This document shows positions 28,198 through 32,902 of a DNA stretch of 32,902 bases, in pieces (position 1 is the first letter of the stretch; every line of letters begins with the position of its first letter). Under the pieces are notes generated by a model, which searched no databases, was not told where the DNA came from, and was given only the letters and a program-made list of their open reading frames with translations. The position numbers and the translations under genes are program-made. The stretch spans positions 1 through 32,902 of the forward strand of contig LXFE01000323.1 of assembly GCA_001929475.1 (NCBI GenBank), read 5' to 3'. This DNA comes from Neolecta irregularis DAH-3 (lineage: Eukaryota; Ascomycota; Neolectomycetes; Neolectales; Neolectaceae).

Positions 28198-30137
28198 ATG
28201 TTTCGACCACAACCAAACCCCTATGACGAAATAGTCGGTATATTCTTCAGCCGCATAAAAGCAGGCGGGTGACGTGATAGTCAAAGCGACAGACGAGAAT
28301 CTCACAAGCGAGAATTGGGAATATATATTAGACGTTTGCGATAAGGTAAACGGGAATCCAGATACCGGGTATATAAAGCACGTCGCTAGTCCCGTGCTTA
28401 TTGCTTGGACCCAAAGATGCTGTTGCCGCTGCCCTGAAACGATTCAGCCATCGAAGCGCAAATGTACAACTATACGCACTCGCTGTATACCGTCCTGTTC
28501 CTCCAGTTTGATATTTACACGGGCAGCTGGCGAATGCGCTTAGTCAAAATTGCGGGACCAAGATCCATCGTGAATTGGCTTCACGAACATTCACGCAATC
28601 GTTGTCTAGATTAATTGGCGATCGCGTATGCATTTTGTATTGTGTGGTCTCATCAAGTTAGAACGTACATAAAAGCGTCAAGGGTCGTGCATTCGAACTC
28701 ATCGAGTCATGGGTGGAAGAATATAAAAGTGATCCGTCACTAGGTCTTATGGCGGAAGCCTACAAGCAATTAAAATCACAGAGTACCTGTCCATTCAAGT
28801 GAAAATTGAGGTATAGATCTTGATATACCGCCTCCATCGAAACCCCAGAAACACGAAATCACTCAATCTGATCGGCGAAGAGAGGAAGATGAACTTCAAA
28901 TGGCTCTTGCTTTGTCGTTGAGCGATAGCGTTAGTATATCGGATAGAAAGACCCCGCAATCGTCGTCGTCGTTTTCACAGGCTCAGCATACTCTACAACC
29001 TCCTTTTGAACAACCAAGAACACCGGCTCCTGCTCATACCACCGCCGCAACGGTGTCGCGTGTTCGAGGTCTATACGATTTTGTCCCCTCTGAAGCAGGT
29101 GAATTAGCTTTTCGAAAGGGAGATATCATCACCGTTCTTGAATCAGTGTACAAAGACTGGTGGCGAGGTTCACTCCGCGGTATAGTTGGAATATTCCCTA
29201 TCAATTATGTAGAAATTGTTCCCGATCCAACGCAAGAAGATCTCCGAAAGGAGGCTGAAGATGAAGCTAAAGTGTTTTCTGAAGGAAAGAATGTTGAGAA
29301 ACTGCTTGTCTTGTTGACTGAGAATGAAGGAGGCAGAGATTTATCTGAAGATGAGCAGCTGCAGGTATATGTTTTATGGCAAGGTTTCTGATTTATAGAC
29401 GTTGTATCATTCAGCAATTTCAGTACGACCAAAGTTGGTAAGTTTGATTGAAAAATATTCGCAGAAACGAGGTTTGATTGACTTTTTCATTCTTGTTTAT
29501 ATTAGATGAGCTTATTACACTCAATGATCGGTTTCTCAAGGCACGTAGGGATTACGATGCGCTGATGGAAGCATCTGTCGCTCAATTCTCACGACCAGAA
29601 GCCTCGATGGGTTATTATCAGCCGTCCAAGGCCCCACCATCTCGACGAGACGAGCGACCACTGGCCGAGACAAAACCTTTTGAACCGTATCAAGCTCCGC
29701 AACATGCGTCTCGCCCAGAGGTTTATGCACCAGTGTACCAAGCTCCACAATCTGAACCGCCGTATGTTCAACATGGCGGTCGACCTGCTGCTAGACCAGA
29801 TATTCGACAAGACTACACCCAACCGGGAACCTCTCGACCATATCCTCCACAAAGCTACGACCAACCCCCGTCCAGCCACCCCCCGTATCCAGTCGACGAT
29901 GCGGTAGACTATCGAGATCCTGCCTATCGTGCGTCCACACCGCCTCTAGTGTCATCCGACGTTTACCAACACCCGCCTCTAGCGTCATCCGACGTTTACC
30001 AACACCCGCCACAACCCGCGCGCACCGACCCCCGACACCCACGAGTATCACCTGGAACAATGGCAGGCATAGGAGACTATTACCGGCAGAAAGATAACGT
30101 GGCCGATGAACTCTTTCTTCCGCGAAATACCGGATGA
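28198..30137 (+). CDS. HSE1: Hse1, ESCRT-0 subunit (STAM orthologue)
   Basis: Hse1 with Vps27 sorts ubiquitinated membrane proteins at endosomes. The start [13 protein letters not shown] is joined by an intron to [20 protein letters not shown], the VHS domain. It continues DAVAALKRF-type helices, [20 protein letters not shown] and [15 protein letters not shown] ubiquitin-interacting motif ([16 protein letters not shown]) follows, then an SH3 domain ([40 protein letters not shown]). The GAT-like helical region is [17 protein letters not shown] and [21 protein letters not shown] Pro/Tyr/Gln-rich tail ends the protein. At least seven short introns are present. The tail has a 33-bp direct duplication (29943-30008). 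The gene lies 199 bp after the STE20-like gene on the same strand. Confidence 0.94.
29943..30008 (+). repeat. 33-bp direct repeat in HSE1 tail, two copies
   Basis: Two adjacent 33-bp units (29943-29975 and 29976-30008) differ by one base (gtgtc/gcgtc). They encode the peptide unit [11 protein letters not shown] / [11 protein letters not shown]. The near identity means a recent in-frame duplication in a disordered region. Confidence 0.9.
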
Positions 30138-31457: not shown

Positions 31458-32902
31458 TTAGGCATCGTAGGTAGGTATAATAGCTTTGAGTGCTGCGATT
31501 AAAAGATGGTTTGGCTTGACCTCTTTTCGCCACAGAGTTTTGCGGGCTTCTTCTTCTTGAGGATCGATTTTGGCGTTGACGTCGGTGTTGGTGTAGGCTT
31601 TCAACAAGGAGGTGCGACAGGAAGGACATTTCGGACCAAAGCCTACAATGAGATTGAACACGGTGGTGGAGTACCTTCAACACTGCTCTCCAAGCAACCT
31701 CTGCAAGCGGTATGGCCACAGTAGGTGGATACTGGCGGGTTTTTAACAAAGTCGTAGCAGACCGGGCAGGTGAAATGAGATTGCAAGGCTTCGATGAAGT
31801 CGCCCATGCTGTACAAGACTTTATCGGTCAAGATTGCCTGCCACGTCCGCGCATTCACCTTGTCGGCATCAATCAGTTTTTTGAGGGACGCAGACGGCTC
31901 CCAAAGCTTTCGAGATTTTTTGACAAGGGCAGCGGCGATGTTGCCGTCGGCTTTCCGTTTCGACTTGGGGTCGTCTTTTGTTTGCTTGTCGGTGGTTGGA
32001 TTGTAGTTGTCGGGGACGACCATTTCCAGTCCAAGTTCAGCGATGAGTTTTTTGCCTGCGACGGTCCAGGGAGCCGGTGCTTTATCGTCCCGGAAGAATT
32101 CGTATCTCCAAACGATGAACCCTGTTGAGCCTTTCTCTGGCCAGTACTATACTCAGACGGGTGATGGTGGGAGATACCCTCTTGAGGCGATAAATGCCAT
32201 CATAGCGGCACCCTTGATCTGGGGCAAATTTTGGGTGGTGCTTTTTCAATTTTTCTGTTCTAACGACGCGAACAGGTTTGGAATTTTTCCAGTTCTTGGC
32301 TTCAGCCCCCTTGTTTGGATTTATGGGAGCATCGCAGGTCATTGCCAAGGCCAAGTTTTGCTTTGCAAGAGTCTGGTCGAGTGTTTGTTCTGCGGTTCTC
32401 CTGTTTCCGGTTTTGAGATCACGGCCACCGGAACCAGTGTAGACAAAACTGTCTCCGTCGTCGATGTCTTCGGGATATCCAGCAGCGAGCACAATGGACT
32501 GAGCGCCGCCGGCATTTGCTGAACCGGCGATTCCGCCTACTGGAGGCCTACAAGGTTGGTGTGTATATTTTGGGCGAGGACCTGTGAATGCCCGCCTCGC
32601 TGACGCCCATTCTGAATTTCCACGTCTGGCCGACTTCGATCCCGGGGATGGGGCCAAAGTGGTCTTTTGCAACAATGGTGCACTGGGCGATCAGAGCAGG
32701 GACCGCAAGGGCATACTTCTTTTGAGCGGCCGACGCATGCCATGCCCCTGCCCCAGTCTTTGGTCTGGGTTGCCGAGGGCATCTTTGACTTTTTGCTCTT
32801 TGAGACATCGATTGAGTCTCCGGCCTTGACAAAGCTGCTAATGTCGAGGGTGCAGTCTTTGCAGAACCTTTGGATGAGCAACGAGGCAGCGCGGGGGGGG
32901 GG
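31458..32902 (-). CDS. UHRF1: UHRF1-like protein (SRA-RING), 5' end beyond the window
   Basis: UHRF1 binds hemimethylated CpG and ubiquitinates histone H3 to recruit the maintenance methyltransferase. The visible part begins with [18 protein letters not shown], which looks like the last Cys pair of a PHD finger. Then come [40 protein letters not shown], and the SRA/YDG domain: [99 protein letters not shown] and [16 protein letters not shown] basic linker precedes a RING finger ([37 protein letters not shown]), and the stop is at 31458-31460. Short introns fall after RSKE, in HR/PP, after RLKR and within CLESS. No in-frame start is visible, so the gene is cut by the contig end. The order matches animal UHRF1. 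Confidence 0.88.
32893..32902. repeat. Run of ten G at the window edge
   Basis: The window ends in ten G after gcagcgc. It lies at the point where the UHRF1-like gene is cut. It may be an assembly or sequencing artefact, since the reading frame across it (Pro codons) has no counterpart in the family. Confidence 0.6.

Follow-up and report, generated by a model that had tools for sequence, protein, structure and literature searches.

The end of contig LXFE01000323.1 (C301 in the assembly we searched) of Neolecta irregularis DAH-3, an early-branching ascomycete of the Taphrinomycotina, carries most of a UHRF1 gene, whose product in animals assists the copying of DNA methylation. We read it, with a probability of about 0.72, as roughly the 3' two-thirds of the Neolecta UHRF1 ortholog, vertically inherited within fungi and taking part in DNMT1-UHRF1 maintenance of CpG methylation, probably without direct reading of H3K9 methylation. 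Judged by its matches, which lie far beyond chance, the UHRF1 gene is genuine. It was already deposited under that name; what is added here is the evidence of its kinship, its partner, a corrected gene model and the Tudor-less form.

Within the window (the whole 32,902-nucleotide stretch analysed), the coding part of the gene occupies 31458-32867 on the minus strand, in 5 exons separated by 4 introns of 31-34 nt (34, 34, 31 and 32 nt), all of them GT-AG. Once the introns are removed, a single frame stays open from the contig end as far as the stop codon (31458-31460, -), with frame and splice sites intact across 425 codons. Its product comprises the last part of a PHD finger, the whole of an SRA domain and a RING of the C3HC4 type; the 5' part of the gene is lost where the contig ends. 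Its features are as follows, with the evidence for each in brackets:

32868-32902, minus strand: contig end, ten C (as read on the minus strand) and 25 nt ending in AG (sequence)
32717-32867, minus strand: first coding exon, with the PHD end (FCKDC) and the linker with [11 protein letters not shown] (splicing, structure alignment)
32683-32716, minus strand: intron, 34 nt (splicing)
32582-32682, minus strand: exon, N-terminal part of the SRA (splicing)
32548-32581, minus strand: intron, 34 nt (splicing)
32178-32547, minus strand: exon, SRA core with the equivalents of the flipping pocket and NKR finger (splicing, structure match, residue comparison)
32147-32177, minus strand: intron, 31 nt (splicing)
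31675-32146, minus strand: exon, end of the SRA, basic linker and first part of the RING (splicing, Pfam)
31643-31674, minus strand: intron inside the RING, 32 nt (splicing)
31458-31642, minus strand: last exon, with the end of the RING, the C-terminal tail and the stop (splicing, Pfam)
32084-32661, minus strand: extent of the SRA, two introns within (PF02182, residues 60-230, mapped by hand on the spliced frame)
31617-31768, minus strand: extent of the RING, one intron within (PF00097, residues 336-375, mapped by hand on the spliced frame)

Because relatives have W-F/Y-C at this point and the sequence here ends in AG, positions 32868-32902 are most likely the tail of an intron plus the ten-C run, with a Trp codon split as TG and G at the junction. 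A sequence-only reading had placed the gene at 31458-32902; its coordinates stand except for the coding start, which lies at about 32867, the remainder being likely intron tail and C run. A protein search recovered the deposited protein P0001, 'E3 ubiquitin-protein ligase UHRF1 [Neolecta irregularis DAH-3]', with 80% of the query aligned at 100% identity; the first 76 residues of P0001 are read in other frames. It thus has a wrong N-terminal frame and lacks the first part of the SRA.

Two neighbouring genes were also noted in the window. A metallo-beta-lactamase-fold gene (PF12706, 30900-31363) is convergent with UHRF1, its last frame ending about 95 bases from the UHRF1 stop, and at 28810-30137 there are frames with an SH3 domain (E=4.8e-15) and, by eye, a stretch like a ubiquitin-interacting motif, which we take to be probably a Hse1/STAM homolog.

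The identification as UHRF1 is carried by domains, their order and individual residues. Pfam finds SAD_SRA (PF02182, E=6.8e-44) in the spliced protein and, C-terminal of it, a zf-C3HC4 RING (PF00097, E=1.4e-8, residues 336-375) in which all eight Cys/His zinc ligands are present. The order is continuous, running from FCKDC through the linker and [14 protein letters not shown] to the SRA and RING. Of the solved structures, UHRF1 itself scores highest (9lpk, E=7.6e-104), and the alignment is co-linear, starting at residue 359 with the last PHD Cys pair and continuing through the linker and the SRA, then a gap and the RING; plant SUVH structures match far less well, with E=8.7e-20 for the best of them. 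Together the Pfam matches and this alignment bear out the earlier proposal of an SRA and RING in UHRF1 order with the [11 protein letters not shown] linker. The PHD-like Cys pair noticed before the SRA likewise aligns with the PHD end of relatives. It reads F-C-K-D-C, or W-F-C-K-D-C with the presumed upstream splice site; this last Cys pair is the only part of the PHD within the contig, and the matching Trp and two Cys are invariant in 19 aligned relatives.

Within the SRA, 10 of 12 positions compared are identical to human UHRF1, including V446, Y466, D469, Y478, T479, N489 and R491, the two differences being A for G464 and R for K490. These seven residues we take to form the thumb, the 5mC pocket and the NKR finger, and to be key to the reading of hemimethylated CpG. 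The SRA as a whole is 60-67% identical to three UHRF1 SRAs, as against 43% to the SRA of another Neolecta locus, C124. Animal UHRF1, a UBL-TTD-PHD-SRA-RING E3 ligase, resembles the Neolecta gene in the PHD end, the linker, the order of SRA and RING, the SRA residues and the presence of DNMT1 in the genome. It differs in its tandem Tudor, for which none of the 36 fungal-named rows among the 120 matches listed, some of them fragments, has a match.

A maximum-likelihood tree was built from 38 rows, namely the query and 37 rows picked from the best 120 of 967 matches, all of UHRF1 type and none plant-named. The Neolecta protein falls in a clade with six named Pezizomycotina rows (support 99/94), inside a clade of 26 fungal or unnamed rows (100/99), and all eight animal rows of the tree lie outside this larger clade. 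The members named in its own clade are from Geoglossomycetes (Geoglossum, Glutinoglossum, Trichoglossum) and Pezizomycetes (Kalaharituber, Peziza), both of them Pezizomycotina, whereas Neolecta belongs to Taphrinomycotina. UHRF1 proteins of Glomeromycotina, Zoopagomycota and Mortierellales (UBL-PHD-SRA-RING) have the same order, no Tudor match and 43-53% identity among the matches listed; unlike them, Neolecta sits in the Ascomycota branch. From its position beside Pezizomycotina and apart from the animal rows we infer that the gene was inherited within Neolecta and is not a contaminant. Its intron sizes agree: by our own reading, the adjacent metallo-beta-lactamase-fold gene has introns of 40 and 32 nt and the DNMT1 gene on C101 of 38, 43 and 32 nt, so that the 31-34 nt introns of UHRF1 fit the Neolecta genome. 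Tree and introns thus uphold the earlier claim that a UHRF1-type gene truly resides in a fungus, and the check by tree that had been proposed puts it among fungal, not animal, sequences.

The opposing view, that the gene comes from another organism in the fruit body (an animal, a plant or a glomeromycete) as a contaminant or a chimeric contig end, deserves weighing since the DNA source was collected fruit bodies, according to the available part of the genome report (PMC5309816, which gives a published assembly of 14.5 Mb at 44% GC), and the contig breaks off right at the gene, beside a run of ten C/G. Its GC3 of 0.585 exceeds that of all but one of the 13 open frames in the window that have at least 200 codons (one of the 13 overlaps UHRF1), but higher values occur, 0.63 in the window and 0.69 in another fetched Neolecta region, though some of these frames may not be genes. 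The closest other-species match by identity among the matches listed is a glomeromycete, at 53% (67% in the SRA), which taken alone is a match that would have misled on origin; the tree instead joins the gene to Pezizomycotina at 99/94. In size the introns resemble those found in DNMT1 and the adjacent gene, and a query of 308 bases from close to the contig end had a single match in the assembly searched, the window itself. We therefore consider a foreign origin very unlikely and, on the tree (with no plant-named row) and the intron sizes, set animal or plant contamination aside.

Two further placements in the trees may be recorded. UHRF1 of the copepod Tigriopus californicus (P0104), which has no Tudor match, sits, together with two unnamed rows, in between the fungi and the remaining animals. 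The rows nearest by path to the Neolecta UHRF1 (P0011) and DNMT1 (P0208) are metagenome proteins, both from the source collection 'lgn' and possibly from a single uncultured fungus.

The sequence-only reading had spoken of a full UHRF1-like architecture. The PHD end, SRA and RING are there in that order; the UBL, the greater part of the PHD and any Tudor would follow past the contig end, none of them having turned up in the sequence searched, and fungal relatives are listed without a tandem Tudor. Our genome searches covered 8.96 Mb in 363 contigs, out of the published 14.5 Mb, and absences weigh little because about 5.5 Mb lies outside the search. In these 8.96 Mb the TTD profile (PF12148) had no match, nor did it give a control match, and the UBL-PHD part of the Kalaharituber ortholog, used as query, found no UHRF1-type UBL or PHD. 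It did return ten matches, five of them PHD (two on C172). All five extend beyond the last Cys pair, ending at query residue 222-228, and since that pair of UHRF1 is already in the window, they belong to other genes and are not the missing exon. UBL matches on C200 and C192 were rejected as the 5' end because they are polyubiquitin genes (the weakest C192 match having no locus of its own), and one further weak UBL match lies on C99.

Comparison with other fungi suggests what the missing part may look like. The four fungal orthologs scanned (P0017, P0031, P0002, P0013) all have UBL, SRA and RING, three of the four have a PHD, and none has a TTD, a domain that the same scan finds in Xenopus UHRF1 at E=2e-66. 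In a 19-row alignment the Tudor-bearing block is filled by two animal rows only. Absence of the domain extends to four animal-named rows (P0038, P0041, P0093, P0104) among the matches listed. Because the fungal orthologs compared are without a TTD, the full Neolecta protein is likely UBL-PHD-SRA-RING with no Tudor. It could instead be that the 5' part is truly absent and the gene a decaying SRA-RING fragment, which would agree with the failure to find a UHRF1-type UBL or PHD in the contigs searched; we regard this as very unlikely, given that the gene stops exactly at the contig end, that neither frame nor splice sites are disrupted in the 425 codons present, and that about 5.5 Mb of the published assembly lay outside the search.

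The sequence-only reading had noted that no partner methyltransferase lies in the window, and a profile search of the rest of the assembly located one. DNA_methylase matches fall on three contigs (C101, C138 and C55), and the C101 enzyme (deposited as P0207) is a DNMT1, with an RFD (E=3.5e-16), BAH in two stretches and a catalytic DNA_methylase domain; among solved structures it is matched best by those of DNMT1 (5wy1, E=1.8e-106). UHRF1 and DNMT1 are thus on different contigs in Neolecta. No CXXC match was obtained in the deposited P0207, a difference from the DNMT1 of the animal DNMT1-UHRF1 system. In P0207 the catalytic stretch PCQGFSG is also short of the residues QGFS, all four of which are present in our own reading of C101, and the two readings differ at two further points. 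Among the matches listed, the closest named relatives of this DNMT1 are from Geoglossomycetes (43-45%), Glomeromycotina and Mucoromycota. In the DNMT1 tree the fungal backbone is without resolution; by path an unnamed row and then Geoglossomycetes are nearest, with no supported clade. Five Leotiomycetes rows are DNMT1-like, form a clade of their own and have no RFD listed, so DNMT1-like ascomycete enzymes are not confined to Neolecta and Geoglossomycetes. As for the other two loci, C55 matches the structure 9baq, 'DNA (cytosine-5-)-methyltransferase' (E=5.7e-41), better than DNMT1 (E=5.8e-25); presumably 9baq is DIM-2, and we accordingly read C55 as DIM-2-like. C138 has weak structure matches (best E=1.1e-11) and is possibly a RID-type enzyme. 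In Cryptococcus the SRA reader Uhr1 is paired with the maintenance methyltransferase Dnmt5; compared by description, the Neolecta pairing of SRA reader and methyltransferase would be of the same kind, with a DNMT1-type partner instead.

A 2023 preprint (PMC10327204), as far as its available text goes, describes all sequenced Taphrinomycotina as devoid of DNA methylases, having screened 14 proteomes, one of them Neolecta; the DNA_methylase loci and the deposited DNMT1 speak against this for Neolecta. The portions available of PMC10538959, PMC13297926, PMC5309816, PMC11061109, PMC10327204 and PMC10878826 contain no mention of UHRF1 or DNMT1 in Neolecta.

UHRF1-type proteins had been called uncommon in fungi, and here the earlier account has to be revised: 36 of the 120 UHRF1 matches listed bear fungal names, Neolecta's own included, 26 of them from Glomeromycotina or Zoopagomycota, and fungal UHRF1 is already on record in the accessible parts of two studies. 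A survey of the Fanconi pathway reports it in early-diverging fungi (PMC11061109), and a CDCA7-HELLS study reports it in fungi including Taphrina deformans, another of the Taphrinomycotina, some of the fungal 'UHRF1' there being SRA proteins without a RING (PMC10538959). Dikarya are represented among the named matches listed only by Neolecta and six Pezizomycotina. UHRF1 is listed for four species of Geoglossomycetes, and an RFD-bearing DNMT1 for three of these among the best 120 of 504 DNMT1 matches. The same best 120 include no DNMT1 of Kalaharituber, Peziza or Geoglossum umbratile, all of which have UHRF1, so the pairing is not strict on the evidence so far. In two species the genes lie on contigs of matching length, apparently the same one in each case: FGG08_000665 and 000711 of Glutinoglossum americanum (UHRF1 and DNMT1, P0015/P0209), both on a 248,623-base contig, and M1840_004428 and 004491 of Geoglossum simile (P0018/P0210), both on a 301,482-base contig.

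Across the window and six more fetched regions, CpG observed/expected ratios range from 0.83 to 1.02, so the genic DNA sampled bears no mark of heavy CpG methylation; such values speak against strong depletion in genes but say nothing against methylation restricted to repeats. Chromodomain and SET matches are present in the assembly searched. No HP1 and no Clr4/DIM-5 was recognised among the chromodomain and SET match frames read (four families, 8.96 Mb), and the chromoshadow (HP1) and Pre-SET profiles had no match in the 8.96 Mb, and no control match either. A search for a CDCA7-like partner with zf-4CXXC_R1 returned one match, C192:20358-20564, which we reject as CDCA7 because a nearby upstream frame encodes a JmjC domain, a combination like that of Neurospora DMM-1 or plant IBM1 in the available text of PMC10538959.

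The Neolecta assembly searched has three further SRA loci, on C124, C308 and C153, and in the 5-9 kb around each we saw no uninterrupted RING-like Cys/His pattern, one split by an intron being able to escape such a search. At C153:5113-5665 and following, the last part of the SRA shares one open frame with a bromodomain (E=2.4e-20); we know of no named family with this combination of SRA and bromodomain.

On our preferred reading, the missing 5' end would encode the UBL and the rest of the PHD and no Tudor, UHRF1 and DNMT1 would act together, and 5mC would exist in Neolecta. After replication, the Neolecta SRA would bind hemimethylated CpG and flip out the 5mC, while the PHD would hold the histone H3 tail and the RING would ubiquitinate H3; the RFD/RFTS of the DNMT1 encoded on C101 would then bind ubiquitinated H3, and the enzyme would methylate the new strand. 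The animal Tudor reads H3K9me3, as stated in the part available of a review (PMC13297926). With the fungal orthologs compared lacking the tandem Tudor, recruitment in Neolecta would rely on hemimethylated DNA and the H3 tail alone, probably without direct reading of H3K9 methylation.

It might be argued instead that the ortholog is kept mainly for DNA repair (interstrand cross-link sensing in the Fanconi pathway), methylation having been lost or become minor. In favour of this view, the genic DNA sampled shows no clear CpG depletion, and the available portion of PMC11061109 counts UHRF1/UHRF2 among the Fanconi-pathway proteins of early-diverging fungi. Such a role on its own would, however, leave aside the conservation of residues that we recall as readers of hemimethylated CpG and the presence of an RFD-bearing DNMT1. 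A co-evolution analysis, in the text available of PMC10538959, moreover ties UHRF1 to DNMT1. We judge retention mainly for repair unlikely, and prefer the reading as part of a DNMT1-UHRF1 maintenance system.

The deposited models of both UHRF1 and DNMT1 need correcting before they are used in surveys. A DNMT1-UHRF1 pair in Neolecta and Geoglossomycetes contradicts the statement of PMC10327204, in so far as its text is available, and qualifies a 2026 review (PMC13297926), which in its available part describes Ascomycota as using mainly DIM-2 and RID, with no strict maintenance enzyme. This distribution suggests that the ancestor of the ascomycetes still possessed an animal-like system, which disappeared afterwards. 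More specifically, and at what we would put as even odds, that ancestor had a working DNMT1-UHRF1 module for CpG maintenance without a Tudor reader of H3K9me, a module that persists beside DIM-2 in Neolecta and Geoglossomycetes and has repeatedly been lost elsewhere. If this is true, the published absence of DNA methylases from Taphrinomycotina is wrong for Neolecta, and the reading of hemimethylated DNA, uncoupled from H3K9me, would suffice for maintenance in these fungi, which would then serve as a natural experiment on whether UHRF1 can do without its H3K9me reader.
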